A stretch of 64,000 nucleotides of DNA from assembly GCA_036872755.1 (NCBI GenBank), contig JAVHNS010000005.1, forward strand, positions 2,604,001 to 2,668,000, written 5' to 3'. The translations under genes and the position numbers were made by a program. This document shows positions 1,795 to 60,175 of the stretch, one piece after another; within the stretch, counting starts at the first letter, position 1, and the number at the start of each line of letters is the position of its first letter. The DNA is from Orbilia blumenaviensis (lineage: Eukaryota; Ascomycota; Orbiliomycetes; Orbiliales; Orbiliaceae). Under the pieces are notes generated by a model. It ran no database searches, was not told the origin of the DNA, and saw nothing but the letters and a program-made list of their open reading frames with translations.

Positions 1795-2010
1795 ATTTTT
1801 ATTATACCAACCCCATAAATCCTCCAAATTATTTTTTAATATAAATTAGTTTAATTAAAACCACCATCCTTAATACAGTCAATCACTCTTTAATTATTAT
1901 ATTAATATATTCAAGCCACATCATAACCAACTAATATATAGTATATTAGTTAAATAAACCTAAAAAACTTGGTATACAATTTAATACCATATACAACCTT
2001 TCAATTCACA
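1795..2010 (+). repeat. Mutated copy of the dispersed LTR-like element
   Basis: The core (ATAACCAACTAATATATAG, then TTAAATAAACCT and a CAATTCACA-like end) aligns by transitions with the better-preserved copies at 30649-30926 and 51450-51703. The left edge is approximate. Confidence 0.55.
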
Positions 2011-2879
2011 TCTACCACCATACATCCACCCAACTACTAATTCATTAGCCAAAATCTAAATCACATTACACTCAACCCGGACCGGAAATTGACTACTCTC
2101 CAAATAAATTAACTACCCACCTATACACTAACTACTAACCTATGAACCAACTTAACCATTCAAAACAAATAATCTTATTTTTATAGTTCATCTATCTATA
2201 TACATATACTACTAAACCCTATAACTAATCCCTCAACTGTTTGTTATCAAAACTATTCCAAAAACAATCCTAACAAATACATAACATCCTAATAAAATTA
2301 TAACACCAAACCACATTTTTTTAATAAAAATAATAATATTACTTAGTATTTGTCCAGTAGTGATAATATTGTTTGGTGTTTCAGCAGTAATGTTGGAAAT
2401 ATTGTCAACCCTCCCACCAAATCCAATAAAACCCATAAAACCAATGAAATAATATAACACAAAAAGATTTATTGAAACCACAAATATCACTAATAATATA
2501 TACCTATATATACACACTTTACTGTTGAAGTAAACATTTATTTGAGATGTAATTATTACCCCACCACCAATATTATCATTACCACCACCAATACTAATAT
2601 TATTACTAATACTAGTACCACCTATTTTAACCTCTTACAAAATTTTAAAAAAATTTAAAAAACGTTTATTAAAACAATTAAACATAAAAATCGAAAAAAG
2701 TAGATTAAACATATCACTATTAACAACTCCAAACAAATCCAATACTATAATTATCACTAAATATATTAAAAATAAAAAATATTCTTAATTATTATTTTTA
2801 TTATACTTATATTAAATAAATTTTACACACCATTTTCACCCCAAACCCCACCCAAAAACCTTCAATAACCAATACATAA

Positions 2880-3080
2880 ATATTACCACCCATTATTACC
2901 CCTAAATTATTACCTCAAATACTTTCATTTTCATATAAATTAATTTTTAATCTAAATTATTTTTTTTAATATACAACAAATCATTCATTAATTACAGACA
3001 ATCCCCATATCATAACCGACCCTATTCAATATAGCAGTCAAATAAACCTTAAAAATAGTTAGAAAAATTTGATGCTATAA
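2880..3080 (+). repeat. Mutated copy of the dispersed LTR-like element
   Basis: Contains CATAACCGACCCTATTCAAT followed by an AGCAGTCAAATAAACCTT stretch, matching the TAGCCGACCCTATTCGGT core of the copy at 29242-29494 apart from transitions. Edges are approximate. Confidence 0.6.
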
Positions 3081-3971
3081 CCAACTTTTGATTTATAAAC
3101 TTCATTACAATAAAACTTGGAGCCAAGAATGGCTCATATCAAATATCACCCACTGTGGTAATTACAAATAAACAAACCAATACTAATACAACCACCACAA
3201 CTAAATTTTAGTTTAAATACTAATAATAATTATAACATTTATACAATTAATAATAACAATAACAATTATTTAACAAAAACATATTCTACAAATATACTGC
3301 TATAATATAATAAACATACTAATACTTAAACTTGGTAAAATATTACAAAAATAAAAATAAATGAACCAAAGCATTACATGCACCATACAAAAACTTCAAT
3401 AACAACAGGTTATACATCAAAAAAAATAAAGGTTTGATTGGGCTAAATCCTTTATTTATTATTAGATTGATAATTCTTAAATTACTTAAAAGTTTTTGAA
3501 TTGGATTTAACAAATATCAATAACTTATAAATGCAATCTTAATTCAGAAGCTAAAACTAGGTGTTGCGAAGTTGACAATAATAAGCTACTCACTACCAAA
3601 GTACATATAAGTACACATAATCCTCACAATAACTAAAGTTTTTAAATTTCTCTAAAACTATATATATATAAAAACTATATACATATAAATAATTTACTAA
3701 TCTATATAATACTTACTACTTTAATACCTACACATAAAATTAAATCTAATTGTTATACAAAACATACTAACTTGTACCAACACTAACCAACCGTAAAATA
3801 TTCATCTTACTAAGCTTTTGCACATTATTTTATTATAATATTTTAAACTAAAATACTTAAATTAATTACCTCACATAATCATTTTTCTTTCATCCTCAAT
3901 ACCTAATTTTACAACACTAATAATTATTACAAATGATTTTATGATGTTTATTTATTAACCGACAAAAAGAT

Positions 3972-4076
3972 TATATATCCTATAATATATCCTATTATAT
4001 ATAATATATCCTATTATATATAATATATCCTATAATATTTATCCTATAATATTTTATAATATATCATATAATCAAC
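3972..4076 (+). repeat. Mutated minisatellite (sister of 137-280)
   Basis: Repeats of TATATCCTATAAT type. The flank from 4087 on matches the flank of the array at 137-280 by transitions, so the two arrays are the ends of a duplication with an offset of about 3.8 kb. Confidence 0.7.
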
Positions 4077-4499
4077 ATCCTATTATTATTTCAAAACCAA
4101 CTAAACAATATTTAAACAATAATCACCATTTTTTGTTATAATCACAACTTTCAAAAATTTATAATTTTAAAACTACCATCTTAAAACCAAACAGCCTGAA
4201 TAGTACAAACAGATAACCTAAACAACATAAACAAACAAAAATACCAAAACTAAATAATATAAATGTATAAATAAAAAACAAACCATAAAACTAACAAACC
4301 ATTATTTCAATATCAATTACACCAACATTTTTATATTTACAAAATAAAACGTTTAACTTCAAAATTTCAAACCTAGCAATGCATCCTCAATCATTCTGAA
4401 ACCATTTTAAAACCTTTTGGTGAAGTTGTGTTCATATTTCCAATCTCTGATAAAATTTAGCGGTGAGTGAGGCTAAAAATACTGTGAATTTACCGATTC

Positions 4500-5420
4500 C
4501 TAACCACAGTCTATAAACCATTCCCGCTTTATTATTTTACTATTATTACCCCTCCACCACGCATCACTACAGCTTTGTTAGTTATAATATATGTTGTAAT
4601 TATTATTAACTATCCAAGTAGATAAATACTATACTCATGTTTTTAATTTTTGATAAAATTTAACAATAAAACTGGAGATGCTACAAATATTATTAATCCC
4701 CAATTACCAATTAGATTTGAAATTCTTAATAAAATTAAAAATATATCATAAATATCAGAAATATTACTTCATTAAAACTAACTTAACTTATAATTCTTAC
4801 AAAACAAATATAAACAAAAAAAAAAAAAAAAAAAAAAAAAAACCGATTTATTATAATAAACGTATACCCTAAAATATAACAATAACCACACTATTTCACC
4901 ATCCCTATATAACCACCACCACAACTATAACAACTATAATATACATTATAACTATTACTACCTAGTTAATAACTACCTAAATAAATGTTATATTCATACC
5001 TCCAATCTCTAATAAAATTTAACAAATATAACACTATAACTAACCTTTGATTATAACCCACCAATTATCTCCAAAACTCTCAATACAACTAAAAATATAA
5101 AACAAAATATTCCACTCCATTCAAGCTAATTTACAAAACCATTTAAACTCAAATATAATTTAAACATATTTCAATAATTAAAACTAAATTATAAAACCAA
5201 ACATAACCAAAAAAACAATCTACCAAAATCACAAATATAATTTACAGTACATTTAACAGCCAAAATACACATACATTTATCCTAAAATAAAACCATTCCC
5301 ACCTCCTTATTATTTTATTATTACCAATTACTCCATAGATCCACCACCACTATTATAACTACAATAACCACTAATTATGTATTATAAATATTATTAAATA
5401 AATAAATACTACTACTGTAA
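4500..5420 (+). repeat. Degenerate tandem repeat, period about 385 bp
   Basis: Three diverged units start near 4515, 4900 and 5290. Each has a CCACCAC-rich start, a run like ATATATTATAACTATTA, and a TAAATAAATACTATA-like segment; the first two units then also carry an AATCTCTAATAAAATTTAACA-like or TTTTTGATAAAATTTAACA-like segment. Period and edges were estimated by eye. Confidence 0.5.
4816..4842 (+). repeat. Poly(A) run of 27
   Basis: Uninterrupted run of A inside the AT-rich block. It may mark the tail of an old retroposed insert, but no coding remnant was recognised next to it. Confidence 0.9.
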
Positions 5421-5489
5421 TACTTGGATATCAGTTTTCCGCCTACCTGCTTGTTGCTATTACTCACTAAATAAATACATATTCAAACC

Positions 5490-5690
5490 ACCAGCACCCC
5501 ATAAACACTCCAAATATACTCATTCATTATTGATTAATTTAATTTTAAACATTAATACATTACTCCTTATACAACTAATAAAAACCATTCCTTTAATTTT
5601 TTCATTCATATACCATTATAACTAACTATTATTTAATATAATAACTAAATAACCTTAAAATCATTAATATACAAAACAATAAAATCCCTA
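5490..5690 (+). repeat. Mutated copy of the dispersed LTR-like element
   Basis: ATACCATTATAACTAACTAT followed by an AATATAATAACTAAATAACCTT stretch follows the order of the core motifs in the intact copies. Strongly mutated; edges approximate. Confidence 0.45.
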
Positions 5691-6351
5691 TCAAAAACCT
5701 TATCCAAATTCAATAATATTTACATTAAAAATAATTTGTATATTATAGGAAATTATTATTTGGAAACTGGAATTGTACCAAAAAAAATAATACCAACTAG
5801 TTAAAAAACATTTTGAAAACATACATCAATATACAATTCAAAATTTTTTGTATGAGAGTTGATGTTGTATATTTGCTGGATTGCTTAAAAGAATCTTATA
5901 TAATCTTCCCCATACAAATCCCTCACCTGCAAAATCATTCTATTTTTTTTGTTTTGGAACAGAACAGTTAGGCATATACACACATACACCCAATACCCCC
6001 AATATAAAAAATTGCAGGTATTTTTGATTTATTTACAAAACATTAATCAATTTTTTTATTTGTAGCAGCAGATATGGATTTTATTGTATTCAAACCAACT
6101 ATATGCACATACGTACATACATCTACATATACATATCAAACTAACATCCAAAGTGCAAAAAAAGATGGTCTGATTAAACCAAATCCTTTACTTTACATAT
6201 ATAATCAAGTTGATACTACCAAAATTTTAAGATAATATATTAACTGAATTAAATCCTACAAAACAGCCGAATAAAAATATTAAATATTAGATCATATTAC
6301 TTCAGCCATTCAAAATAATATTTATTTTTAATATAAAAACTATATAAACAA

Positions 6352-6721: not shown

Positions 6722-9700
6722 CTAAACCTGCAAGTAATTAAGCTCCTCCAACGTTTGCCAGATCTTCCAGGCGTTGGAGTATGCCTTTCCTTCTGAAAAC
6801 TCAATCTCAGCCAACCACCTAGTATATAGGGGCCATTCGTGTAGACGGAGACCTCGGAGGCCCAATTCACCGAACACACGAAAACGGATATCTGGGTCGG
6901 TGTGAACTGCAGAGTAGATAGCTTCGCAGACCTCATAGCACTGGCAGCCGGTGTCTTGGGATGATATTACAATACAGACACGCTTGGGGAGGCCACATTT
7001 GGTACAAACAGCATCAACCCAGGTTGTTGGCTCTTTTGGTGGGGTGTACATGGGGCAGTCGGCCAGAGAGTGGCCACGGGAAGACTCCAGTGTAAATCGA
7101 CAGTAAGCACAGTCAGCCATTGCAATCTGTATGAATTCGATGATAGCAGCGGCCTGGGTGTGACGGGCAGCGTTTCGACTGGTTCTGGGGAGGGTATCGG
7201 GGAGGATAGAGCGAGGCCGACTGACTACAGCGACTGCAGCCGCAACTGATTTGGGGTCCCTAAGGGTGCCGCAATTGTCACACAGGGCACCATTTCCGAG
7301 AACGCAATCAATAGCATTCTGGTTACCATCCATAAAACTGCTAAGCACCCAGCGACGGCAAGTGGTGGTGGTAAGATATAGATTGAGGGCTTTCTGGGAC
7401 TCCCGCCTCCATAGCTGTTTGTTATTATAGTTATCTTCCGCGTGAGGGGATGGCTTACGGCAAATAACTACATTAACGGCTGGAGAACCGTCCCGACCGG
7501 CTCTGGAGCTTTGCTGGACCAAATCTACGATGGTGTATGGGCAGCCCACGTGAATGACAGCAACCACGTGCTTTGCATCCACCCCCGGACCGAAGCATGT
7601 GGTGGCACACATGATACCACCCTTCCTATCCCAAGCAGCCATAGTCTCCGACCGCTCCTCGATCTCCATCGTGCCAATGTACAAGAATGCTGTGATTTTG
7701 GTTGGAATAGAAGGACCAGCAGCAGCAGCAGTAGCAGTAGTAGTAGCAGCAGTAGCGCCAGCACCAGCAGTAGCAGTAGCACCAGCAGCACGAAACCCAG
7801 AAAAAGCACCAGACCGAACACCAGACTTAGCACCAGATTTAGCACCAGCCCTAGCACCAGCCCTAGCACCAGCCTTAGCACCAGCCTTAGCAGAAGCAGT
7901 AGCAGGAGTAGCAGCAGCGCCAGCACCAATACTAGCACCGTGTAAGCTATCGCATAGGGTTTCGGCCTGGGATATGCTTCGGCAGAAGACCAGAATTTTA
8001 TTCTTCTGTGGCACCGATGTCATAGCCATTAAATGGCTGTACAGCTCCTTAATATAAGCTATAGATTCGATAACGACGTCCTCGGTGACTGGTTTCACTT
8101 CATACTGCATATTCAGAATGCTGGTGGTGCTGCGGATTTCGTGAAACGACCCCAAGTGAAAAAAATTACAGATTGGTGCTAGCATCAAGGGGGGGGTGGT
8201 GGCTGACATGCAAACCAGCTGCAGACCCATGTTGGTAAGCAGGGATAGCCTTGCGACATCTCGAAAGCCTTCGTCCAGGATCGGTTGGTGAATCTCATCA
8301 ATGATAATGCGATCAAGACGACGGTCCCGGTGTAGATCAAAGGCAGCATCTAGGAAGGCTGGAGAAGTGGCGGCTTCCGGGGTGGCTATCATAATGCCAG
8401 GTACTTTCTTTGAAATATGCCTGGGCTTGATCATCCTGTAGGTGGGCTCCCCCTCTTCATCCCGACCGCGATATTCCGAGGCCCAATAAGTAACGTAGAT
8501 ACCCATCGCTTTGGCGCGAGCAACCACGTCTTCACAGGTAGATATATACGGCTCCACGATAATCGAAATGCCGGTCCCAGCCTTGATAGCTAGTAGGGCA
8601 GCCGTAGTCTTCCCAGCAGCACAGGCTAGAGTAACCAAGAGAGGAGAGAGGCTCTTCTTGTAAATGGCTTCCGCCGCCTGGCCCTGTTCTGGTAGCTTCC
8701 AATTCGCACGGCCCAGCTTGCCGTCCGGACCCTTGGTGGCGTACTGCTCGAATAGAACAGCATGGAGCTCGCGCGGGAAAGGCTCTTTGATCGCAAAGTA
8801 GTTGCTGACAACAACCGAACTCCCAGTACCCTGGGCGGACGTTCCAGCGAAAGATGAAGCGGGGCTACCACCAAAACCAGACGGACCGGGGAGACCGGGA
8901 AGACCGGGAAGACCAAGGGGGAAAGCATCGCCTTGAACAGGGGCGCGAAAACGGGGGTCTACGGGGAGCAAGGCTCCGGGCTGAACAGCAGGCGGCAGTT
9001 GGTGAGTCTCTGGGTAGGCAGGCTCTCTAAATCTTGGCTGAACTACATATCGAAATCAAATGGTTAGCTGCGCCTGATATACTATCTAACTAATATTGTT
9101 TTTTATAAAATTTATAAATAAATAGCCGCTGCTACAAATTACGGCTGCAAACTGCATTGCTTGCAGGATTTACAAGCGCGAAAATCAGGTGCTACATATA
9201 TCAGCGGTACTGCAGTTGGGATTACACTTACCACCAATCTCAAAATATATTTTCGACGGCTCGACAACCCAGTCGGGCAGATTTGGGATGGCTCCGATAA
9301 AAAATTGGAACTGGCAGGTTGCCCTGCGGTAGATGTCCATGGTTATTTCGTCGATATCAGCGAATCGCTGACCTTCACCGATGCCGTAGACGCTGATATT
9401 GGTACGCCGCCCATGGCCAAACTGCTCCGCCAGCACGTTCTCTTCTTGCTCTACTTTTCTTTCAATCAGCTTACTCATCGGATCGACGTAAGCCCTGGTG
9501 ATACCGGCCATGATTTGACGATAATTCGAATGCTTGAGAGGGAAACCGATTGCTGCCTGCGCGTACGTAGCTAGAAAGTCACTGAGGACATTGGATTCCC
9601 ACGGTATGCCTTTGTGGTTGGCGAAGAGGTAGGAGGACAGCGCATAGGTGCCGTCTTTACTACGTAAGTAGTCGCAGAATGGATCTACCAGCAACATATA

Positions 9701-11883
9701 GACCAAGAAGAGCTGGGCTACATCGGGGGGTAGATATCGAGCGATTCCCTTGGAGAAACCAGTCATAGACTGGGTTTTGATGTAGACCGACAGAATGAGA
9801 ACATCACCGTCGACTACAAAAAAATTCCTCAAATTCGAGGCCGTGTTGAACTTGCGCAGGACCGAAAGCTCTGTACCCCTGGGGGGTTCACCACTCATCA
9901 ACCAAACAGCCACGGCTAGCCATCTACGCATGGTGGTATCGAGATCCATATAGTTCTTCGTGGCCAGCTGAGAGAGAACCGGAACGCCTCTGGGAAAAAA
10001 CATATTCCTAAGCCTGGGCTCTGAGGTGACCTTGTTCAAGAGATAGGTAGGCTGCCCCTGGGACTGCAAGGTCTTAGGATCACTGGCAAAGTAGTAGCCC
10101 CTGGAGGTGTCGGATGGGTCGTCGAACAGCTTGGAGATATCAATTGTTGGTATCTCCTCGTCGTCCTTCAGAAACAATAGTTCCCGCAGCTGCTTCTTCA
10201 TGAAGTCCGGCACCGTTTTTATGAAAGAGCGGTACTTGATAATGCAGAACAACTCTCCGTTGTACCAAATACCAGTACCGTCGTTCTTCCAGTGGAGCTT
10301 GGCGGGACCGGCGGAGTGCTGGGTAATAGCGGCGCTGTATGCATGCTGGGACAACCATTCGCTCATGGGATAACCCTTTCTTTCCTTGATAATGTCCAGG
10401 ATTGCATTCAGCTCGGAGCGCAAAGCATCGTTCGGGTCGGTGTCCGTGTTCAAGGCTTTCACCCAGCAGTACCTCAAGACGCAAAGCCTGGTAGAATAAG
10501 TCATGGCCGCAAAGAATCTTGTCGACAGCTCAGCTTTGCGCCAAGCCCCCCTCTTTTCATCCCAGCCCAGGGTAGCAAGGTAGTTGATGACCGGGTGCTC
10601 AAAACGGGACTCTGTGGTAACGGGAACCGGAGCGCGCATCAGCCCAATTATTACATCCAAGATCAACAGGCCCAAGTATTCGAGCTCCCCAGGACTAAAT
10701 CCGTCGGCGCCACTGACAGTACCACTACCCGCAAAAGATATTATATATTCAAGATTGTTCTCGATTTCGTCCGGAAACACCACGCCGGAGGCTGCATTCA
10801 ACTCTTCGTTCTCTGGGTCGAGCAAATTACACAGATAAACGACCATTCTCGTCATAATGGTGAAATAGTCGTCTAGGGTAGTAGCTACTAGCTTGGCACT
10901 GAAGGGTCGAGAGTCGTCGGCTTCGTTGGGGGAGCTGATTTTACAAAGAAATCCAACGCCAGTCTTTGGGATGTATTCCAGGCTGGAAGATAGCAGAGCT
11001 TTAGTGGCGGTATGAATGGTGGTGGTTAGACTGTCACGGCCCAGCTTGTTCAAGCGGCAGACTTTAGCGACGGTTTCATTAGAACCGCCGCAGAAATCTA
11101 GCCAACCGGTGCGCTCGAACCAAGGAACTGGTGTCTGGAGCTCGGAGGGGGTGTCGGTCAGGTTTGATCTAGTCTTGATCATGTCCAGCAGGAACTCGGC
11201 TTCTTGTCTCCCTTCAGCATCAGCCCCAGCATCAGCCCCAGGAGCACTGCCAGCAACAGCACCAGCAACAGCACCAACGGTACCAACTTCATGGACTCGA
11301 AAATACGTTTTGCGGCGGCCACCAAACAACAGCTGACAATCAACGGTATTATCGTCGACTAGCTTGCGGTGGGATCTTTGGCCGACAGGACGGGTGTCAT
11401 GGCTGCAGCGGCTCCTATGAGTGATAACAGAATCCTTTGTAGAGTAGACCAGCTGGCAGTAGTCGCATTGGTAACCAGTGCTGACCTTGAGGTCGGGGAT
11501 TCTGGCGATGTACCTCTTCTGGATCTTCCCCTGGAAAGCTACGATATCCATCTCCGGTGAAAGGTGGTCTTTCAAATCCGCGACAACAGAGCCGACGACG
11601 CGCTTAACATCGCCACGATCCTTGCCGTGGTTCGAAACCAGGTGGTTTACAAGGCTTTCCCATAGGACTAAGTACTGGCACTCTGTACAAATTGCGACTT
11701 TGATGGAGGACCTGACCCCCCCCGAGACCGTTTTCATGGTACGAATAGCGTACCGGAACCTATCGATGGGCTCGAACTGGGCCGTAACATCCTCAATCAC
11801 CTATTTATATCACATTAGTCCGTGCAAGTAGCTCTCCAGATTAAGGAAATAAAACCTACAACTGCGCTTAGTGGTTGCTCCAT
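6722..11883 (-). CDS. Tyrosine recombinase-RecQ-like helicase fusion (OrsD/telomere-linked helicase family)
   Basis: Model: exons 11883-11860, 11800-9232 and 9042-6722; about 1637 aa. The first exon (8 aa, GCCATGG start context) is inferred because the large ORF opens right after an in-frame TAG at an acceptor; its 59-bp intron has an ACTAAT branch site. The 189-bp second intron (G|GTAAGT ... TAG) joins both large ORFs in phase. Visible order: C2H2 fingers C46/C49/H61/H66 and C120/C123/H136/H142 followed by a YFRV stretch, as in OrsD/DUF3505 proteins; a recombinase-like core with R649 (PPRGTEL), K683, H765/R769 and H804-x8-Y813 (FGHGRRTNISVYGI), matching the XerD/Cre order; a helicase with P-loop AAGKT (K1009), DEIH 1113-1116, SAT 1144-1146, motif V 1342-1353 and SRAGRDG 1377-1383; RecQ zinc cysteines 1426/1444/1452/1455; a CCHC knuckle at 1509-1527; and a final Cys cluster from 1544. 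All key residues are present. Likely role: DNA cutting, joining and unwinding for an integrating element; not proven. Confidence 0.85.
7712..7939 (-). repeat. Low-complexity Ala/Gly/Lys/Thr insert in the helicase gene
   Basis: Trinucleotide-rich DNA (AGC/AGT, CCAGCA-type units) encodes about residues 1233-1308, including AKAGAKAGARAGARAGAKSG. It sits between helicase motif IV (ILVFCRS) and motif V, inside the second RecA lobe. The frame is kept, so it is probably translated as a flexible loop. Confidence 0.85.
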
Positions 11884-12782: not shown

Positions 12783-15700
12783 ATGCCACCCAAAGCCCCC
12801 CGAACATGGATCTGTTCCACCTGCAACATCAATTTCATCACGGATTCTGCTAAGAAGGCGCACGACCGCACTATTCATCAATCAGATGTAATGGTAACCT
12901 TCAAAGACGGCGTAGTCAAGACCATTTCCCGCAACAATGGTGTTTTCACGTGTATATGCGGATACCAGAACCCCAATCCTAATACCATTCGATCGCATTG
13001 CCTCCGCAAGCATGACAGTCTAGCTGCATCATCTATTGCGCCGTCTGTTCTGCCAATTGGTTTGTCGACTGTTGAAGCCACAGCTGCTGGAACGACAGTT
13101 GGAACGATGCCTGATCCCTCAGCTGCTGCCAGCTCATCTGGGTTCCAGCCTGCCTTTGATGATTTCCAAGACTTCGAAGAGGATCTATACGCAGACCCCT
13201 CAGCCCCAACTGCAACCGCAGCCCCAACCGCAACCGCTTTGCCACCCCCTCCAGAATTCGTTGAGCCCCAGGTTGCTCCAGTAAGCCCAGTCGGCCCTAC
13301 GCCCAGGTATTCCCTCCATCAGGATAAAGTGCAATCTAAGCGCAGAAGAGTTGAAGACGAGCCTGTTGCTGCCGCTTCAGCCTTTAGGGAGGAAGCTATC
13401 GCCCCTAGCGGTGGAGATGAATCCGGACCTGCTGCACCATTAAGCATCCTGGAGAAGCCTGTTGCTCTCGAATTGACAGCCGTAGCTGATCCTCCGACTC
13501 TCGACAGCCCACCCCCATCATCAATCCCACTTGCGCCACAGAACTCGTACCACCACAATCCTTTGTTTCTTCCGCCTATTTGGTCTGAATGGAAGAACTA
13601 CGGTGATGCGGATTTGTTAAGCCGCATGAAGATGCTTACAGAACCCCTTACCAGTGCCCTCAGGGATCCCCCCATATTCAGCAAGATCCATGGCCATGCT
13701 ACCACTATGATACGCGAAGCCCTGGAATATCTTGAAATTGCCCCAGATATGTTCCGTAAAAAGCTTTTGACGTCTGTGGGAGCAGTTGCGCCGGTCGGAT
13801 TGAAAGTAGACAACCCAGATCGTATCGTAGAGCTCTTCGGTCGATACATACTGTTTCTACTCCGTACCTCTGACGGTGCCTTCCCCGCCGACGATGCTAG
13901 TCGCTGCCGGTTACAGTGCCCAGAACAAATGCTTCAGCTCCGTATCTCTCTCTTAAACCCCAAGCGGTCGACAGGTAACGCTGGCTACCTCGGAGATTTG
14001 GCTATTTTCGCCAGTTGTGGCTTCTACATCACTGCGCCTTCCCCAAAGGCTTACCAGACCAGCGGTCTCCTGAATTTCGTTAATCTGCTGGCTTGGGATG
14101 GTACCAAATTTATTGAAGGAAAGGATATGCTGGCGCTGCTGTCGGACGCAGATGGTATGGCAAGAGTGGTGGCTGCTGAAATGACGTTGCTTCAGTATCG
14201 CGATGAGCTAGCTGATGGTACCGCACCTATTCTCACTGGGAAGCCTGATAACAGACCATATCAGGATTACGAGCTGCTGTCTGCTGAAGGGCCGTTTTGT
14301 CTTTCAGCGTTGAGCCGGTCGATATACCTCATGCGGCTAGTTGAACCATACTACGAGCGCGAGCCGTCTCCGGATTTTATAATTGACGCAACCGAGTTAA
14401 CGAAACTGTTAATGGTATCGCTGGCGGAGCTTGAGGAAAAAATAACGAAAATGGCGTTCAACGTACAACTTTTTATATTTCTAGAAGACTACTATGACGA
14501 CCTAGAGAGCACTGCCCCCGGCTACAGCTTCATGACAGACCCAAGGAATGCCTCAGATATGAATTTCGACAAGCTGAAGCAAGTGGTGAAGAAGGACAAA
14601 GCTTTGTTCGGAAAGGTTTGTCCTGGTGGCGTTATCAACAAAGAGTTCTTCGAGGCCTATAGTCACTACTATACCAGAGCCATTGAATTGACTGTTACCA
14701 TCCTTGCCATCTGTTGCGGAGAGAGGTTTGAGCCCGAGGATGCAGCTAGGCTTCTAATCCGGAATAGCGAGGGCTACCAGAGAAGCTTTTTTGTTTCCGA
14801 CAGCAGTCTGTACGTAGCTTGGAGGATACTGGGTTCGGAAGAGGTAAGCTTTCGCAGTTAGCTATAATCTCGTTGATTTGATAGTTCTATTGCATAACGT
14901 ATCGGTAAATGTATTTGTGAGCCAGGCTAATTTATAATGGATGAAGATCGGGATACAGGTGCTGCCAACAGAGGTCGGGGAGGCTATCTGTAAAATAATG
15001 ATGTTTATCCAGCCGTTCGTCGCATGGATGAGACAGAGGATAGGTGGAAAGCGGAGCCAGCTGGAGCGGTCAAAACCTCCCGAACCACACGCCTTTCTGC
15101 TGCTGGCCAATCGTCCGATATCCGGGGTGTCCATTGGTAACATCCTACGTAACCACGGAGCCTCCATGCAGATAGAAATAACCGCCCAGACTCTTCGGGA
15201 AGCGGCATTTCGCATTAAGAAACGGTTTTGTATCCACATGCCACCCACTGTGGCTCGGGAGCTGGAGAAGCTCGAGATTTCCCTGAACTTGGCCGGTTCG
15301 ATGACTGTAACCAAGGGGCTTATCGCGACCGCCAGCCAGCAAACCGCATGGATGAATTACCTCCTGATGCGACAGGTTCCAGCCATTAAGCCTTATAATT
15401 ATGACGGTAAGTACTGTAGCGGACGGCCAACCTACTTTGTACTGTAGAGTTCGAGTAGCGGTGATGAATATTTACGAAAGCCTAAGACTAACTTGTATCT
15501 AGGGAGTAGCAAGAAGCATGTTCAAGAGTTGGAGATAAAAGTGAACGGAAGCGGTTCCCATCTACTGGCCGTCTTCAAGGATCTTGCAGGAATCAGTGAA
15601 CGCTCTGGGAAATTCGGGTTCAAGTCGATTGTCTTCCTGAGAACGGCGGTGGCCATGCATGCGGTGCTGCAGATGGGAGAAAATCCACCAGGTCACTACA

Positions 15701-16539
15701 AGATTTCTGCCGTGAACAAGGAGGAGGGAATCGTTAAACAATGGGCCAGGGATACCACCAAGCACCTCCTGTTGCTTCCGTTCAGCCAGTCCAAGGATCT
15801 ATTGAACCTGCTGCCTTGGATTCAGCCTCTCCGAATAGCCTATATCGTCCACGGTGGTAACTGCATGGATATAGATATGTTACTGCAGCACTGTAACATC
15901 GCGACATCGCTGAGGGTCTACGTTACTTCCCCGTCGCTTTTCCAGGGCCGGCCAAGCTCTCTAGCAGCAGCTTCAATGCAGCAGTGGTTGCAGCCGCAGT
16001 GTCGCAAAGTAATGCTCTACGGTTTGATGGGACTCAAGGGGTGGAACTGTTTAGAAGAAGGCTGTCGCCGGTGCGATTACTGCGCGGAAACCGCGAGCTC
16101 CCCATACAGTGGCCTAAAGCGTGCCCTGGGAACCCTAGTTAGCGTAGACGCCTGCGGCTTCTGTGTCATTCATCGCGAGGTAGCGACATCGCACGCCACC
16201 CAGGCTGAAAAGGCTTGCCCTCTTGTTGCAACGAGGCCGCAGATAAGTAGTTTAATAGATGCGATGAAGTTCGGGCTAGTTTTCAGCATTAATCGCTGCT
16301 CCCACTGCGGATTACCATCGGATTGGTGCGCTGAAGGCTGCCAATACAGCAAGATAGCCTTCCTGGTAGCCGCATCAGCGATCATGGATGATGAAATTTG
16401 GAAGCATCTGGAGGAACTGCGGTTTGGCCGCTCCCAGGATCAGGCGGTAGCCTTTCTCTATGCTGAGGAAGAAAACGGGTTGCTTCAGGTGCTGGAGATG
16501 CTGTTCGAGAAAGGGTTCCTTCGAGTCCCCAGCCAGTAG
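12783..16539 (+). CDS. Degenerate recombinase-helicase fusion paralogue
   Basis: Model: exons 12783-14843, 14959-15406 and 15503-16539; about 1181 aa. Both introns (115 and 96 bp) have GTAAGC/GTAAGT donors, GCTAAT/ACTAAC branch sites and CAG/TAG acceptors, and splice in phase (0 and 1). N-terminus: C2H2 finger C11/C14/H27/H32, then a second at C57/C59/H72/H77, and a Pro/Ala-rich linker. Residues about 640-830 follow the recombinase core of the divergent neighbour (VLPTEVGEAI against YLPPDVAQLF). However, the catalytic Arg is replaced (ERFEPEDA), GH becomes GS, and no Tyr is found at the active position. The helicase part begins only at the second lobe: no P-loop and no DEAH. The motif VI position reads NIATSL instead of SRAGRDG. 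RecQ-type zinc cysteines (1003/1019/1027/1030), a CCHC knuckle (1054-1075) and a CSHCGLP cluster (1102-1116) are kept. Probably a DNA-binding or partner protein without recombinase or ATPase activity. Confidence 0.82.
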
Positions 16540-17061: not shown

Positions 17062-18198
17062 ATGAACCCCAACATTCCAGTTTCCCGTACGTATGTACAA
17101 GCCTGACGACTATGAAGTCGAAGCTGACAAAAAGCAGCAGGCAAGCGGTACCGAGAGGTCGACGCGAAAGCTCCCCAAGAGAGCCCTCCCCACAAGCGCC
17201 CCCCTGCCCCATCCCCTCTAGATATCGGTCCTGCCTACCAAGCCTACCAGGATATTATGAGGGACATCCCAGAGGTTTACGGAGCCGGACCTTTTGCCCA
17301 ATACCAACCAGCGATTGCAACCGGAACCATCTCCTCTAAGCCTAGCACCTCAACCCCAGCTAAACCATCGCCAAAACCAGTCCCAGCGAAAGCATCACCA
17401 TCACCACCAGCCCGGGCCATCTCACCGCCTGTTACTCACCATCGAACAACCCAGTCTTTCCATCCACTCGCGGCTCCCGTTATCCGTTCTCTTGCAGCTT
17501 TGCGTGGTGATGCCTGCAAATTCCAATCCATCGCACTTCCTCTCAAAGTTGCCGGCGATACATCTATCAAGTATACCCCCCAGGCCTGCCGTTGGTATGA
17601 AGAGGGAGAACTCTTCTTCTGCACTACTCCGGATCACCCTATCGCGGGCACCCTTCAACCCTTCGAGGAGCAGACTACCTTCGGCAGCCAGTTCACCACG
17701 CAGATGTTTTCTGCGGTCGCAGCCCCTTCCGCCCAACCTGTCGATATTTCCCACCTGGAAGAATTGTTGGATTTTGTCAGCAGCAAGGTGTCCCGGTGCA
17801 TCATCTGCGCTTTTAACCGCCAAGATCCAACCCACCACGTCGGCTCCTGCGCTTCCGCCGAACAGCTGGGAACCTTCGTCTGGAGCGGTGCTTTCTCGAG
17901 GGAAAACAGCAGCAACCTAGACCAGGCCATTATGGTTATCGCTGCGCTCTGTCGCATCATCTATCCTCGCTGTATGGCCCTCATCGAATCATCTTTGAAT
18001 GAACCTATCCCAACCGACTACCTCCAGTACAAAGCTTGGTGCTTTGAGCCAGCGACCGTTTTCGGCTTCAAGCTTTTGAAGGGGTATGCGGTTGTTGAAG
18101 CCATTAGGAACCTAGTTGAGGAAGGCCAAATCATCCTTTACTCCAACGACCTCTCCACTGTCAACGCCTTTCGCGAGTCCGCTGACGCGGATGCTTAA
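17062..18198 (+). CDS. Stand-alone C-terminal zinc-module protein of the helicase family
   Basis: Model: start 17062, exon 1 to 17086, exon 2 from 17138 (or 17141) to 18198; about 361 aa. The short intron has a GTACGT donor, CTGAC branch and CAG acceptor. It is preferred because the frame upstream of the first internal ATG (17257) is open and protein-like (a basic KRYREV... and KRPPAP stretch). Residues about 70-130 are Ser/Pro/Thr-rich. The rest resembles the C-terminal tail of both fusion proteins: a CCHC knuckle C229/C232/H241/C246 (CIICAFNRQDPTHHVGSC) preceded by an amphipathic LEELLDFV helix as in IIEFIQIA of the intact fusion, and an FGFKLLKGYAVVEAIRNLVE end like FSEGKAYSNAWKIWQTLE. No recombinase, helicase or P-loop remains. 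Same strand as the degenerate paralogue and 520 bp downstream. Possibly a partner, competitor or regulator of the fusion protein; function unknown. Confidence 0.7.
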
Positions 18199-53700: not shown

Positions 53701-55199
53701 GTGGAAAAGATATGAAATGAAAATATTTATGTAAAGAAATTTAAATAAAATAGAATATATTTATAATATAGGAAAAGTAGATAAAATAAAATGTAAAAAA
53801 TAAAATATAGAAATGTGAAATGGAAAATGGAAAATAGTAAATGTAAAATGGAAAATAGAAAATAAGAAAAATAAGAAGAAGAAAAAAAAAGAAGGAGAAG
53901 AAATAAGGTATAAAAGAAAAATAAAATTGTAATAAAAAATGATGATTAAAATAAAAAAGTATAAAGAGATATATATGAGAAAGTGGAAAAGAAATAAAAA
54001 AAGAAATGTAAATATATTAGAGAAAAAAAAGAGGGAATAAAAATGAGGGGAAAGAAATAATAAGAGAAAATAATAAAATGATAAAATGGAAAATATGAAA
54101 AGTAAAAAAGATAAAGAAATTAAAAAAAAAAAAAAAAAATGAAAGTAAAAAAAATGAAAAAGATGAAAAAAAATAAATTTAAAAGAATTAGAAAAAAATG
54201 GAAAAAAGTGGAAAAAAGTAGAAAAAAGTGAAAAAAAATAAGAAAATAAGAAAAAAAAGAATTGTGAAATTGAAAGAAGGAGGGTAATGAAGAAAATGGA
54301 AAAAGTGAAAAAAAAATAAAGTAAAATAAGATAAAAAAAAAAGGATGAAATAAAAAGAATAAAGGTTAAAATGGAAAAAATAAAAAGAATTAAAGAAATA
54401 AAAAAGAGAATAAGGAAAAGAATTAAAAAAAATGATAAAATAAGAAAAATAATGAAGATAAAAAAAAGAGAATAAAAAAAATAAAAAAAGAATAAAAATA
54501 AATTAAAAGAAGGAAGAAAATAAATAAGAAAAATGAAATAAAATAAAAAAGGGGGGTGAAATGAAAGAAGGAAAGAATAAAATAAAATAAAAAAATGAAT
54601 AATTTAAGGAATAAAATAGAATGAATAGAATGGTTAGAAATAAAGAAAATATATAAATAAAATGGAATAAAAGAAAAAATATATAAGAAAAGAAAAATGG
54701 AATTGAATAAAAAAAAGAAAGTGGAAAAGAAAGGGAATAAAATAAAATAAGATAAAAAAAATAAAATAAAAAAAAAAAAAGATAGAATATAATATAAAAA
54801 GAAGATAATAATAATAAAAGAAAAAGTAAAATAAAATAAAAGGAAAAAATGAAATAAAAAGAGAAAGATAAAATAAAAAAAGAAGGGAGTAAAAAATAAA
54901 AAAAAAGAAGATAATAGAATAAAAAAAAGAAATATAATAAAATAAAAAAAAAATTAAATAAAAAAAAAGAAGAAAATAAAAAGAAAAAAAAATAAAATAA
55001 AAAAAAATAAAATAAAATAGAAAAAATATGGAAAGAAATAAAATAAAAAAAAATAAAAAAATAAAAGAAGGGAATAAAATAGAATAAAAAAAGGGAATTG
55101 AATTTAAAAAGAAAATAAAAAAAAAAGTAAGGAAATAGAAGATAAAGGAAAAAAAAAAAAGAAATGGAATAAAAAAAAATAAAAAAAATTTAATTTTAA
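53701..55199 (+). repeat. 1.5-kb purine-rich tract without a single C
   Basis: Reading all lines from 53701 to 55199, the + strand has no C; it is almost entirely A and G with scattered T (GAAAAT/AAATAA/AAAGAA words). The last C before it is at 53700 and the next at 55200. It directly precedes the mutated recombinase-helicase copy. It is not a simple tandem repeat of one unit. Confidence 0.95.
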
Positions 55200-55699
55200 C
55201 TACGGGTTATTCGTTGCGAGAACTAGGCACTGGTTCCAACCTTTGTTATATAAGCAAATTATAGTCTTGGCAAAAAAATCAGTATTGATTTCAACACTAA
55301 TTCTGTTATTAGATTAGGTAAAATAAGTGAAAAATTTTTAAAATCATAAACAGAAATTTAAGTGAAATGGAATTAGACACTGGTTTTGTTATTTAAATAA
55401 AAAATTTGAAAAATTTTATAAAAGGGGTAATCTCAATATTTAATTGTTTAAATATTTTTGATAGAAATTATATTTTTGATAGAAATCATATTTTTGATTA
55501 GATAAAATATACCGTACTGTAATTTATATTTATAATGGTGATTTTGACCTTTTAATTATTATCAGTAACTGATGAATTTTTTTATATTCTGTAGTGGAAA
55601 GTTTTGTTTTATAAAAAATATCAACATGTTTATACAACTGTCAATATAATCGAACACTATTACCGTAATCATAAATCAACAACAAATCGAATAAATTGA

Positions 55700-58600
55700 T
55701 AATAGTTAAAAAAAATATTACAAGATGTGGGTTTTTTTGATATATTTAGATTATTTAAATTGTTTAATCAAAAAATGGTATTTTTTTCTTAATTGTGGTT
55801 TAAAATCAGTACTGAATATGTTTGTAAAAGTGAAGGATGTTAATATAAAGGATATAGTTGTAAATGAGTTAAATTTTATTTATGTTGCTTTTATGGTGAA
55901 AAACGAATTGCGGGTCAATTTTATATTATTTAAAATTATTTTGATTTATATTAAGTTTAAATGGTTTGCGTGTAAGATGCTTTTTTGATTTAATGGTGAA
56001 TTAATTAAATTATAATTGTTAATTAAATAGTTGGTTTGAATGGTTTAATGGTTGTTGTTTTTAATTAATTTTTATAAGAATGGTTAAATGTAGTTATTGA
56101 ATTATTTATTGTTAGTTATGTTGAATGTTAATGGTTAGTAATTTGTGATTTTTTTGTATAAGATATTAGTTTTTGGGATAATAGAATTGGTTATTTTGTG
56201 TATGTGGTTGGTTTAGATTGATTAGAAATGGTTGTTGTTTTGTGAATTTTCGATTTTAAATATAATTTTGATGAGGGCGAATTGGTGTTATTTTGGTTTT
56301 GTAATTTAAGTTATATATGCATGGAAGTGATTAGACGGTCAATTGCGTATGGTGAATTTGTATAGTGGAAGTATTGAGCTTTTAATAATCATATTTTTTG
56401 TTTGTTAGTTAGCGTTGAAGTAGGTATGTTAAGTTTGAAATTACTTTGGTATATTTAAGTTAAATTTGTTAAAGAGTATTTTAATATTTGGGCTTAGTTT
56501 TTGTGTTACGTTTGCTGAATTAGAAATGGTTTTTTATTTAAAAATTGTATTGAACTATTGTTTATCTTAATTGCTGATCAAATTTTGTGGGTTGATAATT
56601 TGATTGAAAAATTGAATTATTGATTATATAAAAATAAATTTAATGATTTTGAATAGTTCTTGTGAAATTTAATTGAGGTTGTAATTTTTATGTGCGATGA
56701 TATAATAGTTAAGATGTATTTTGTTATGATTATAATTTTCATTAAAGAAGAATACAAGTTTAGTTTTTTGGAATGTGTATTGTTTTTTTTTAGTGTGTTT
56801 AAAAATTTTAAATTTTGTGGTTTGATTATGGTACCCAGTGAGGTTTTAATTTTTTTTAGTAAAATAATTTATTGTTGTTAATTGGTGGTTATTGGTTATT
56901 TTTGGTTAATTTACTTTGATGATAAAATGGTGTTGGAAGAGTTGAAAAAATTTTGAGAGAATTATATGCAAAATTATATTAGAATGTTGTTGGGTGAATT
57001 GCAAAGTTAACGAGTTTTGGTTATGCATATCAACAAAAATGAATTTTTTATGCTAATTATGTATTGGATGGATGATAGTGTGATTATGTATTGGGATATA
57101 AAATTGGATATTAATAGATTGGAAGGTTTTGTTAGATTTTTAATTGAAAAAGTGATCAAAGTTTGGAATTGATTGGTGTTTAATATAATTGTTTTTAATT
57201 TTAATTTTAAGGATTATGTAATGGTGTTTGAGAATATGATAGATAGAAGTGCGGTTTATAGTGGTTTGATTGATGTGCGCGGTTAGGTGATGGAAATTAG
57301 AAATTAATTTTTGGAAGTTTTTTTTGTGAAATTGTGTGATCCAAATTTTAGTGGAGAGGAAAATTTTGAAAATATTTTTACAATGGCTTGGTTTATTTTG
57401 TATGAGGAGATGGTTGAGGAATTTTTGGGTTTGATATTGTTTTTGGTTTATATTTGTGTTGGTTAATTAGTTTGTGGTATAGAGATTTTAAGTATTTGTT
57501 ATTTGAATATTTAAAACTTTTGTAATTTGTTTGTTTATGAAGGTATTATTTTGATTAGCATTTACTATTATAAAAGTCAAAATATAACTCAATAATAAAG
57601 GTGAGATTTTAAAAATTCTGCAATATAAACTTAGTTTGTAAAGTTAATCAACCATAAATATGTACATTGTAGTTTGCTCCCGTAGCTAAGTTAAATGGTA
57701 GTTAATTATTTAGTTTTTATTGTACCAATCCAATATCTTGCTTTTTGGTCGGTGTTAAGCGTTCAAAATCCATAAATATTATAAAAAAAAATAACAACCA
57801 AAGTTAGTTAAGTTTTATTTTTAACATACTTATGGGCAAAATAGAAAGATAAATAGCATAGTTTAGAATTAAACAATCTACTACACAAAAAAACTGTAAA
57901 ACACGATTTGTTTGAGTTATTTTTTCAGAGTTGGTGATAAATAAATATATTTATTGCCAATTATTTATTTAAAACCTACAACAAGGCTATAGATCTTGAA
58001 AATAACAAATTTAATAACAAGGATGAAACATTAAATTTTGAAACATTAAATCTTTGGGATTAGTTTGTTTTTTATTTAACCAAAGTGGTTCAAAACCGTT
58101 ATGGTATACGGTTAAATATAGGTTATACCAAAAGCAAAAAATCATTGGTAGAGTACGTTAAAACTTGTAAAACCTAGTAAAAATGGTTAAAAATTAATTA
58201 ACACCACTAACTATTGTTTATTAACAAAATCTTTATTTTGGATATTGATTCCAAACATATTCGGAGTAATTCAATTTCTTTAATAAACAACCAATTTAAA
58301 AAATCACTTAAAATTGTATCCATTTAGTTTTGTTGGATTATGGACACAATTGATAAAGTTTTATGCTGTTTGTTTAAAATTAAAATTCCTAAATATTGAT
58401 GTTTTGAGTAGAGGGAGGTATTGGAGTATATTATTATGGGAACAGCTTAGATTCTAGCAATCTTGCTAACCGGTGGAGGTAAATTATTACTCTTCCAGTT
58501 GTTAATTTGTTTGATAGGTGTAAGGTATATGGTTGTTATAATTTTATTTAAAGCGTTGTAGGATGATATTATTAAAAAGATGATAGAGTTGGGAATTCCA

Positions 58601-60175
58601 AATTGTTGTTGGGATAGTGTTAGTGAAAATCAATTAATGCTTAATTTAATTTTTGTTAGTTTGGAATATATTTAAAATTTTAGTTTTTATGTTTTTTTGT
58701 AGAGGTTGTAAGTGGAATAGTTTTTTGATTGAATAGTTTTAGATGAGTGTTATCTTGTTTTGATAGATGATGTTAGTTATTGATTTGTGTTTTTGGATTT
58801 GAATTAATTGTGTATTTATAATGTTTAAATTGTATGTTTGATTGTTATTTTATTAGTGTTTGAAGAGTTGCGGTTTTATTAGTTGATGAGTTTTGAAAAA
58901 ATTGCATTTAGAATTATTTGAGTGTTTATTATTTGGTTTGAATTTAAAATTTAATGTGTAGTTGGAGTTAGTTATGAAAATAGTTAAAAGATTGTATATA
59001 ACTTGTTATATGGGTGGAGTAAAGATAATAAGTTTAAATGTAAATGGGCGGTTTGTTTTGTTAATTCTAAAAAATTGGTTGAGTAGTTTAGTGTGAAATT
59101 TAAGGTTTTGTGTTATTATGTGGATATGAATAATAAAATTGAAGTGTTTGATAAATGGTGTTTAGTGAAAAAATTGTTTGAGGAAGTTGTTATAGTAATT
59201 GTAGTTTTGTATTAAGGTATTGATTTTAGTAATATAGATTTGGTAATTATGTTGGAATTACCTAGCTTGATTTATTATTTTATTTAAGTTATGGGTAGGG
59301 GTGGTAGGGATGGTAGTATTGCTTTTGTTGTGATTGTAGTTTTTAGTAATTGGTGATTAAAGTTTTTTTTTGAAGTAGTTATTTTTGAAGCGTTTATGGA
59401 GGAGTTTTTGGTTATTTGGAATTGCAGATAGTTGGTGTTGAGTTGTGGTATGGATAATATGATTAAATCTTGTAATTGTGATGATTTTGATTAAATTAGT
59501 TGTGATAATTGTGTTAGATTTGTTGGTTATATTAAAAAAATTTTTTTGTGGTTTATAAAAAGTTTATTATTTGTTGAAATAAATAGTTTGCTTATTGTGA
59601 TAAGGATTGAGTATAAGATTGTTGTGAATTAAGAAATTTTGATTTTAGAATTGGTTGTTTAAATTTAGTTTTATTGTGGTGAAGAACAAGTGCGTTTATA
59701 AATAATAGTTAAGTAAAATTGGTTGGATGGATTAAAAATTGGTATGTTAGTGTTTTTGTGAATATGTTTTATGTGTTATTTAGATATGTTTTTGTTAGGA
59801 TAGTTTATTGTGATATAGTAAATGTATTTTTTTTATGATTGTTTTTAAAAATGGTAGGTTAATGATTTGAGAATAAAGTTGAGGAATGGTGGTTTTTGTT
59901 ATTGTTGTTTTTTATTAGATTGGATTTGTGGGAGAGTAGAGGTTAGAATTTTTTGTAGTGAAAAATATAAATATGCGGTAGTATTGTTTTGTTGGATTAT
60001 TTTTTATTTAAGTAAATATTGTGTATTGATTTTTGCGGTGGTTTGGGTTAAGGATTTTAGGGAGTTTATGGATTGGTGTGGTGAAAGTTATATTTTTGAA
60101 GGAATGCGTAGTTGTAATGTTGTTTGGTTTATAGTAAATATAATGGATGTGTATGTATTGATAAGAATGATTTAG
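55700..60175 (+). pseudogene. Hypermutated copy of the recombinase-helicase fusion
   Basis: One frame runs from at least 57086 to the stop at 60175 with many TAG/TAA/TGA but no frameshift that I can detect. Anchors in this frame: TYR-core start at 57473, where the catalytic Arg codon reads TGT in a CGIEILSI context; the H position reads TAT at 58073 and the catalytic Tyr codon is at 58100, keeping the x8 spacing (YLTKVVQNRYGI); P-loop TGGGK at 58469-58483; motif VI GRGGRDGS at 59294-59317; CDNC at 59501-59512; and a CYCC cluster with a final SYIFEGMRSCNVVW tail ending at 60175. Substitutions are the C-to-T type on the coding strand, with some G-to-A at 57.55-58.4 kb. The 5' part (55.7-57.0 kb) is too decayed to place zinc fingers. 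Recombinase and helicase are in one ORF without the intron region of the intact gene. Confidence 0.85.

Follow-up and report, generated by a model that had tools for sequence, protein, structure and literature searches.

We found that the end of a chromosome of the nematode-trapping fungus Orbilia blumenaviensis (contig JAVHNS010000005.1) carries a gene, here gene A, whose product unites three parts in one protein: OrsD-type zinc fingers, a core for which a tyrosine recombinase (YR) fold is predicted, and a RecQ helicase. The window, i.e., the whole stretch of DNA analysed, is 64,000 nucleotides long. A polypeptide of this composition had been proposed in a first-pass annotation of the window, and is supported by the public protein model, the Pfam matches to OrsD and helicase domains, the predicted YR fold, and a profile comparison with PDB for the helicase. 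In the reading that we favor, with a probability of about 0.7, the product of gene A is a recombination enzyme made of three parts, the neighboring gene B probably encodes its catalytically dead partner, and the two belong to a subtelomeric module that is maintained via exchange or copying of chromosome ends.

Structure of gene A and its helicase

Gene A is on the minus strand and appears in the window as two ORFs, one at 9185-11800 and the other terminating at 6722. The public protein model, TWF730_008884 (1637 aa), has the N-terminus MEQPLSAV-VIEDV and, when compared to the window, EIG-VQPRF at the second junction; it implies an ATG at 11883 and a short first exon. The in-phase joining of the two ORFs by a 189-bp intron, suggested earlier, is borne out: the donor G is at 9231, the last acceptor base is at 9043, the join preserves the frame, and TWF730_008884 has the same junction. 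The reading frame of homologues is continuous over the position of this splice. In the C10 paralogue, coding is uninterrupted at the equivalent point, and its 1338-aa ORF corresponds to 1287 contiguous residues of the 1503 in the annotated protein; in the C3 copy, one 1252-aa ORF covers the YR core and the start of the helicase. The features of gene A are as follows.

11860..11883, minus strand: exon 1 (MEQPLSAV); the start of TWF730_008884 agrees with the window
11801..11859, minus strand: predicted intron 1, 59 bp, from TWF730_008884 compared to the window
9232..11800, minus strand: exon 2, with OrsD zinc fingers, a helical middle and the predicted YR catalytic domain (ORF, Pfam, public model)
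11411..11707, minus strand: OrsD (PF12013) domain (Pfam, E 5e-9, over the cut-off)
9239..10315, minus strand: predicted YR catalytic domain, approximately exon-2 residues 496-854 (AF2 model, PDB structure matches)
9043..9231, minus strand: predicted intron 2, 189 bp, GTAAGT...TAG (sequence and public model; missing from the C10 paralogue)
6722..9042, minus strand: exon 3, with a linker, RecQ-type helicase, zinc clusters, C-terminal tail and stop (ORF, Pfam, public model, PDB profile)
8192..8692, minus strand: DEAD (RecA1) domain (Pfam)
7487..7699, minus strand: Helicase_C (RecA2) domain, matched in part (Pfam)

The helicase is a RecQ helicase, with both the RecQ-type SF2 core and the zinc-binding subdomain that define this class. 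Pfam returned DEAD (4e-11) and Helicase_C (6e-11), with RecQ_Zn_bind at E 0.011, under the cut-off. In comparison of the family profile to PDB chains, RecQ helicases were on top (RECQL5, 1.8e-55), and RECQL1, BLM and E. coli RecQ were also matched. It should be noted that the description of this part as a complete RecQ holds for the core and the zinc region, whereas neither RQC nor HRDC was listed in the Pfam scan at E<=10.

The predicted recombinase core

Five residues of the putative YR active site were located in exon 2.

9878..9880, minus strand: R649 codon, box I, G-x-P-x-R-x-x-E (family alignment)
9776..9778, minus strand: K683 codon, the lysine following a beta-hairpin strand (family alignment)
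9518..9520, minus strand: R769 codon, [YW]R[QH] (family alignment)
9413..9415, minus strand: H804 codon (H-x8-Y spacing)
9386..9388, minus strand: Y813 codon, the predicted nucleophile (H-x8-Y spacing)

All five residues and the H-x8-Y spacing are present in 14 of 14 undamaged members of the family, very distant proteins included; the damaged copies C12, C17 and C8 were left out of this count, and the identical copies C14 and C20 were entered once. The first-pass annotation had read R..K..H/R..H-x8-Y in tyrosine recombinase order. The canonical order and the H-x8-Y stand, but the histidine of the classical HxxR is not conserved: none of the 12 family-A rows has H at -3 relative to R769, and gene A of the window has its own H at -4.

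Comparison of predicted structures, which had been set beforehand as a test of the YR fold, returned Cre/Xer-type YRs as the best matches, suggesting that the core has the fold of a YR catalytic domain. YRs and related enzymes formed the top 15 and the top 44 VIA-align rows of two predicted models; for the AF2 model (pTM 0.82, from an alignment of 9 rows), they took ranks 1-44 among the 50 entries listed. In Foldseek, YRs were at ranks 1-13, with E never below 0.001, TM-scores of the YR rows of 0.24-0.28 (query length), and rmsd of 5-26 A; the compact superpositions come from VIA-align only. The stretch that holds Y813 has pLDDT below 50 in the predicted model. The best matches, XerC, XerD, XerH and Cre, have the H-x8-Y spacing in common with gene A, and the protelomerase TelK and Ndc10 matched more weakly than these; nothing observed pointed to hairpin formation or a centromere function.

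Sequence profiles gave a different picture. No YR family match was obtained for gene A in Pfam or PDB sequences, or for its YR core in PHROGs, and the profile-profile search, proposed earlier as a check, did not link the core to known YRs: hhalign with Cre, XerC, XerD, FimB, FimE and lambda Int was not significant (probability 0.8%, E 0.074). This alignment pairs box I, the lysine and the second arginine of the core with an arginine, a lysine and an arginine of Cre, presumably R173, K201 and R292. Since no YR family was matched by profile, the case for a YR rests on the motif and the predicted fold. The catalytic activity of gene A is something that we infer. With exon 2 alone as a protein query, none of the 7996 scored candidates reached E<=0.001, the annotated full-length proteins being probably over the length limit. 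Pattern searches gave 21 and 24 stretches in two runs on viral contigs and 58 in prokaryote genomes, none of them confirmed, and no match in plasmids.

Copies of the family and genes B and C

At least 13 loci of the gene A family were found in the genome, all 13 on telomere-bearing contig arms (these counts are lower bounds, as only the best candidates were scored). The distance to the contig end is 2.2-127.5 kb for 12 measured loci and 18 kb for the relic C8. In having multicopy RecQ-like genes near telomeres, the family fits the description of telomere-linked helicases (TLHs). No helicase was found in two of the 13 loci, C9 and C15b, where the catalytic set is nevertheless intact, and C8 has a core match only. 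Helicase matches at C2:986,033-986,899 (25-34% identity, contig interior, no core match) were taken as another host helicase and not counted.

Six copies have 34-51% identity to the window, the lineages are old and occur in Arthrobotrys megalospora and O. oligospora as well, and RIP-like damage is seen in C12, C17 and C8. The sole recent copy is the identical pair C14/C20, which belongs to a duplicated chromosome end of about 44.8 kb. At all points sampled, the two ends match, starting close to the telomere and continuing up to C14 position 44,769, and the break is at a tract of 1-4% GC outside the module. Transposition was considered for this pair and rejected, since the match runs past the module; ectopic recombination or break-induced replication of the ordinary kind would suffice to produce this copy, without recombinase activity.

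Two further genes of the module lie on the opposite strand.

12783..16539, plus strand: gene B, probably several exons, with zinc fingers, a YR-like core without the catalytic set, a RecA2-like remnant and zinc clusters, no RecA1 (ORFs, profile comparison)
17257..18198, plus strand: gene C, conserved module gene, 313 aa from the given ATG (matches at several loci)

Gene B is the head-to-head neighbor of gene A, with divergent transcription. The first-pass annotation had noted neither this pseudoenzyme partner nor the position of the window at a chromosome end. The profile comparison of the two (E 4e-27) indicates that gene B is a paralogue of gene A that has kept much of the architecture and, judging from its residues, lost both catalytic centers. 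Residues were read at five loci (C5, C10, C6, C1 and C20; C14 duplicates C20, and C12 is damaged): the catalytic lysine is lost in four of them, and gene B of C1 keeps a lysine in that column. At 6 of the 13 loci, gene B was not found or gave short matches only. Gene C was considered as a copy of the tail of gene A and rejected, the match being limited to a 33-residue zinc motif (E 0.0025, probability 12%). The A-B-C set is common to several chromosome ends, with strand and place of C differing by locus. Shared motifs were sought in the A-B intergenic regions, with nothing convincing.

Proposed mechanism, alternatives and meaning

Under the favored reading, the N-terminal OrsD/C2H2 zinc fingers would dock the protein of gene A on DNA, the YR domain would cut and rejoin strands via Y813, with R649, K683, R769 and H804, and the C-terminal RecQ helicase would probably unwind or migrate the resulting junctions. 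The protein of gene B is probably a structural or regulatory partner within the synaptic complex. Xer systems likewise have two related subunits, controlled by a DNA motor; in contrast to them, the partner here lacks the catalytic set, and to our knowledge neither XerC/XerD/XerH nor Cre has a RecQ domain or zinc fingers. The A-B pair, often with gene C, would form a module of the subtelomeres. This module is most likely selfish or semi-selfish and would maintain itself by driving the copying or exchange of chromosome ends. The target of the reaction, the A-B complex and the benefit to the module are what we infer.

The assignment of the core itself could be disputed in two ways. The absence of sequence-profile support and the low Foldseek TM-scores would suit an unrelated helical DNA-binding domain with a coincidental motif order, to which we give very little credence in view of the YR-dominated VIA-align rows of both models and the H-x8-Y spacing kept throughout the family. 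A domesticated, non-catalytic DNA-binding fold (cf. Ndc10 and DUF3504 proteins), in a protein acting only as a TLH, is improbable: the five catalytic positions persist in all undamaged members, and also in the copies where the helicase was not found, in contrast to gene B and DUF3504, whose sites have decayed.

With a catalytic YR accepted, the module might be a discrete Crypton-like transposon that includes B and C, is excised as a circle, integrates at preferred subtelomeric sites, and uses RecQ to replicate or resolve the element. A multicopy YR with zinc fingers, the recurrent A-B-C set and the RIP-like damage are in line with this, and Cryptons share with gene A the YR fold, the chemistry residues, an additional DNA-binding part and eukaryotic hosts. 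However, GCR1_C (CryptonF) and DUF3504 have no match in gene A in the Pfam scan, and neither "helicase" nor "RecQ" occurs in the Crypton paper's main text. Starship captains (DUF3435, PF11917) are also fungal YRs, but PF11917 was not listed for gene A in the Pfam scan to E 10; one DUF3435 locus was found in the genome, in the interior of C9. The earlier attribution of gene A to a probable integrating element found no support in ends, target duplications or an empty site. Around the module, the search for termini and for direct repeats like those of Cryptons gave only short repeats, indistinguishable from chance, and the flanking repeats were not convincing. No recent independent insertion was seen among the loci found in this one strain, the lineages are old, gene C is variably placed, and the recent copy arrived with the chromosome end; we do not favor a discrete transposon, although it is possible. 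A host-serving role in telomere or subtelomere maintenance, with the YR-RecQ enzyme resolving or promoting end exchange, e.g., on telomere failure, as proposed for TLHs, is possible but not favored. The exclusively subtelomeric loci and the intact frames in old lineages agree with it, as does the rise of some telomere-linked RecQ genes in telomerase-negative survivors of U. maydis, reported in the accessible part of PMC10532341; the copy number, RIP-like decay of some copies and divergence between copies, on the other hand, look selfish.

Compared by description, gene A and the known TLHs (U. maydis UTASa/UTASb, Magnaporthe, Fusarium, S. pombe tlh) are alike in being RecQ-type, multicopy and subtelomeric. 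In the accessible part of the U. maydis description (PMC10532341), UTASb carries OrsD, a conserved "core", or both, and is located close to telomere repeats or on the 5' side of UTASa, the gene with RecQ; a YR domain is unmentioned there. In gene A, the helicase is preceded by a predicted YR fold with the full catalytic set. A literature search outside subscription papers and preprints found no paper on OrsD together with a tyrosine recombinase, and none that brought together RecQ, tyrosine recombinase, fungal, telomere and transposon.

RecQ-like genes at chromosome ends of U. maydis were reportedly described in Genetics in 1998, and the role of such genes in fungi has been guesswork since then. 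The YR active-site set in the same chain as RecQ offers a concrete chemistry, in which a covalent tyrosine-DNA intermediate is predicted, and could explain why TLH genes are located at ends and spread between them. Gene A joins a YR and a helicase motor within a single chain, and A-B is a conserved pair of a predicted active enzyme and a pseudoenzyme. We tentatively extend this to fungal TLHs as a class. They would then be site-specific recombinases, in which a YR-RecQ enzyme works together with a YR-RecQ paralogue that has lost catalysis to exchange or copy chromosome ends. If so, the recombinase escaped sequence searches because the YR can be recognized by fold and motif only, and subtelomeres would have a YR-driven mode of propagation: the long-known "telomere-linked helicases" of fungi may be recombinases.

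Structure of the fused gene

6722-11883, minus strand: gene A, OrsD zinc fingers, predicted tyrosine recombinase (YR) core and RecQ-like helicase
12783-16539, plus strand: gene B, a second zinc-finger gene, upstream of gene A and head to head with it
17257-18198, plus strand: gene C, linked to gene A by a short zinc motif only

The first-pass annotation placed the OrsD region, YR core and helicase of gene A in a single gene; the organism, Orbilia blumenaviensis (Orbiliaceae), is a nematode-trapping fungus. The gene structure held: both open reading frames and the in-phase 189-bp intron are present in the sequence, and the database protein TWF730_008884 (P0002, 1637 aa, named "DNA 3'-5' helicase") has the identical join, plus a short first exon. 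The paralogue on contig C10 has a single open frame of 1338 aa across the equivalent of the junction, including the junction-spanning peptide; this frame contains 1287 contiguous residues out of the 1503 in the annotated C10 protein. Since the junction point is also uninterrupted in proteins of Arthrobotrys megalospora and O. oligospora, the exon join is more than a gene model.

When the family profile was compared to PDB, the top matches were RecQ helicases (RECQL5, 1.8e-55, followed by RECQL1, BLM, E. coli RecQ and WRN); neither RQC nor HRDC was among the Pfam matches of gene A (E<=10). The window copy carries an alanine/glycine-rich insert between the helicase domains (7700-7930), encoded by short tandem repeats and missing from the eight aligned relatives. 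It should be noted that further frames are open across this stretch, in both orientations.

Subtelomeric copies and their age

We found at least 13 family loci, on contigs C5 (the locus in the window), C10, C14, C20, C6, C1, C3, C9, C15 (two loci), C12, C17 and C8, and all 13 are on contig arms whose nearer end bears a telomere array. The distance to the contig end is 2.2-127.5 kb for 12 loci and about 18 kb for C8. At most 14% of the genome is equally near an end; for 12 of 12 loci the nominal chance is 6e-11, a value uncorrected for copies with a joint origin. Nine of the 12 measured loci face inward. The window covers C5:2604001-2668000. Gene A lies 64 kb from the telomeric end of C5, where a TTAGGG-type array occupies 2,679,923-2,680,069, directly adjoined by an 86-bp unit repeated about 17 times (C5:2678469-2679924); matching units also occur in L032. 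The ten OrsD matches that the genome yielded all fall in the gene A family, and the C12, C17 and C8 copies are riddled with stop codons in a RIP-like manner. An interior helicase match on C2 (25-34% identity) lacks any match to the core; it was not counted in the family and probably represents a normal helicase of the host. For DUF3435 (Starship captain), the genome yielded a single locus, C9:1509132-1510175, where the weaker of two matches has two stops.

Within the window, about 34 kb (18200-52000; 43-48% GC) is without an ORF of at least 180 aa, representing either gene-poor or decayed subtelomeric DNA or short-exon genes. AT-rich blocks (2001-6000 and 54001-60000; about 18-25% GC) flank a GC-normal region, and their strong GC skews have opposite signs (-0.57 to -0.59 versus +0.61 to +0.69), resembling the result of C-to-T change acting mainly on one strand per side.

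In the tree, the window copy is sister to the pair of C10 and A. megalospora (100/100), and the C1 copy pairs with O. oligospora (84/88), indicating that the lineages of the family are old. The sole recent copy seen, C14 versus C20, lies within a chromosome end common to both. Identity, read in sampled stretches rather than continuously, is 99.98% across the 8.4 kb that surround the module and 100% in the directly following 3,369 bp, which reach C14:44,769. Closer to the telomere, two samples of less than 600 bp, lying at mirrored distances, show 99.65% and 100%; three samples further in gave no match. This copy is a chromosome-end duplication rather than a transposition. Neither the ends nor the repeats of a discrete element could be pinned down for the gene A module. 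The C14/C20 identity breaks off at about the start of a C14 tract of about 1-4% GC (C14:44770-46400), which may be a fragile break site.

Partner genes

At C10, C14, C20, C6, C1 and C12, gene B likewise lies head to head with gene A, which with the window makes 7 of 13 loci; searches at C3, C9, C17 and C8 did not find it, and the two C15 loci gave short matches only. Judged by profile comparison (E 4.2e-27 over 875 columns), gene B is a paralogue of gene A from its central part through to the C-terminus. In each of the five B proteins read, the first helicase domain lacks its motifs, and the arginine of box I, the catalytic histidine and the tyrosine are absent; zinc cysteines are retained. 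The lysine column has K in one of five (C1), and the second-arginine column has R in two (C5, C6). Gene B has open frames as long as 1241 aa and identities of 23-40%, which argue that it is kept and is not a pseudogene. Gene C accompanies the A-B pair at C5, C10, C14, C20, C6 and C1, where the match has one stop; it is present at C3, where gene B was not found, and a damaged gene C lies about 21 kb beyond gene B at C12.

Proposed mechanism and relation to known families

The catalytic set is intact in the C9 copy, in which the only trace of the helicase side is 24 residues matching the linker that precedes the helicase, in one of the two C15 copies (C15b), which has no helicase match, and in the C3 copy, which has lost helicase motif II. 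They suggest that the YR is the longest-retained part of gene A. Most likely, the zinc fingers would dock on subtelomeric DNA, the predicted YR chemistry would exchange strands, the RecQ part would migrate or unwind the resulting junctions, and the gene B protein would be a non-catalytic partner. The module may be selfish, or it may act in telomere maintenance.

The family itself is of a known kind, the telomere-linked helicases (TLHs), described as multicopy subtelomeric RecQ/helicase genes in U. maydis, Fusarium, Zymoseptoria (as Mycosphaerella graminicola) and Agaricus (PMC10532341, PMC7593156, PMC12857005, PMC4522978, PMC7473861); U. maydis UTASb is described as carrying either an OrsD domain or a conserved "core", or the two together (PMC10532341). 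No paper combining "OrsD" with "tyrosine recombinase" was found in the literature searched, subscription papers and preprints being outside its scope; thus, within that literature, the YR domain in a TLH family and the pseudoenzyme partner appear to be new. A YR domain in a TLH-type family would give an old question a testable consequence.
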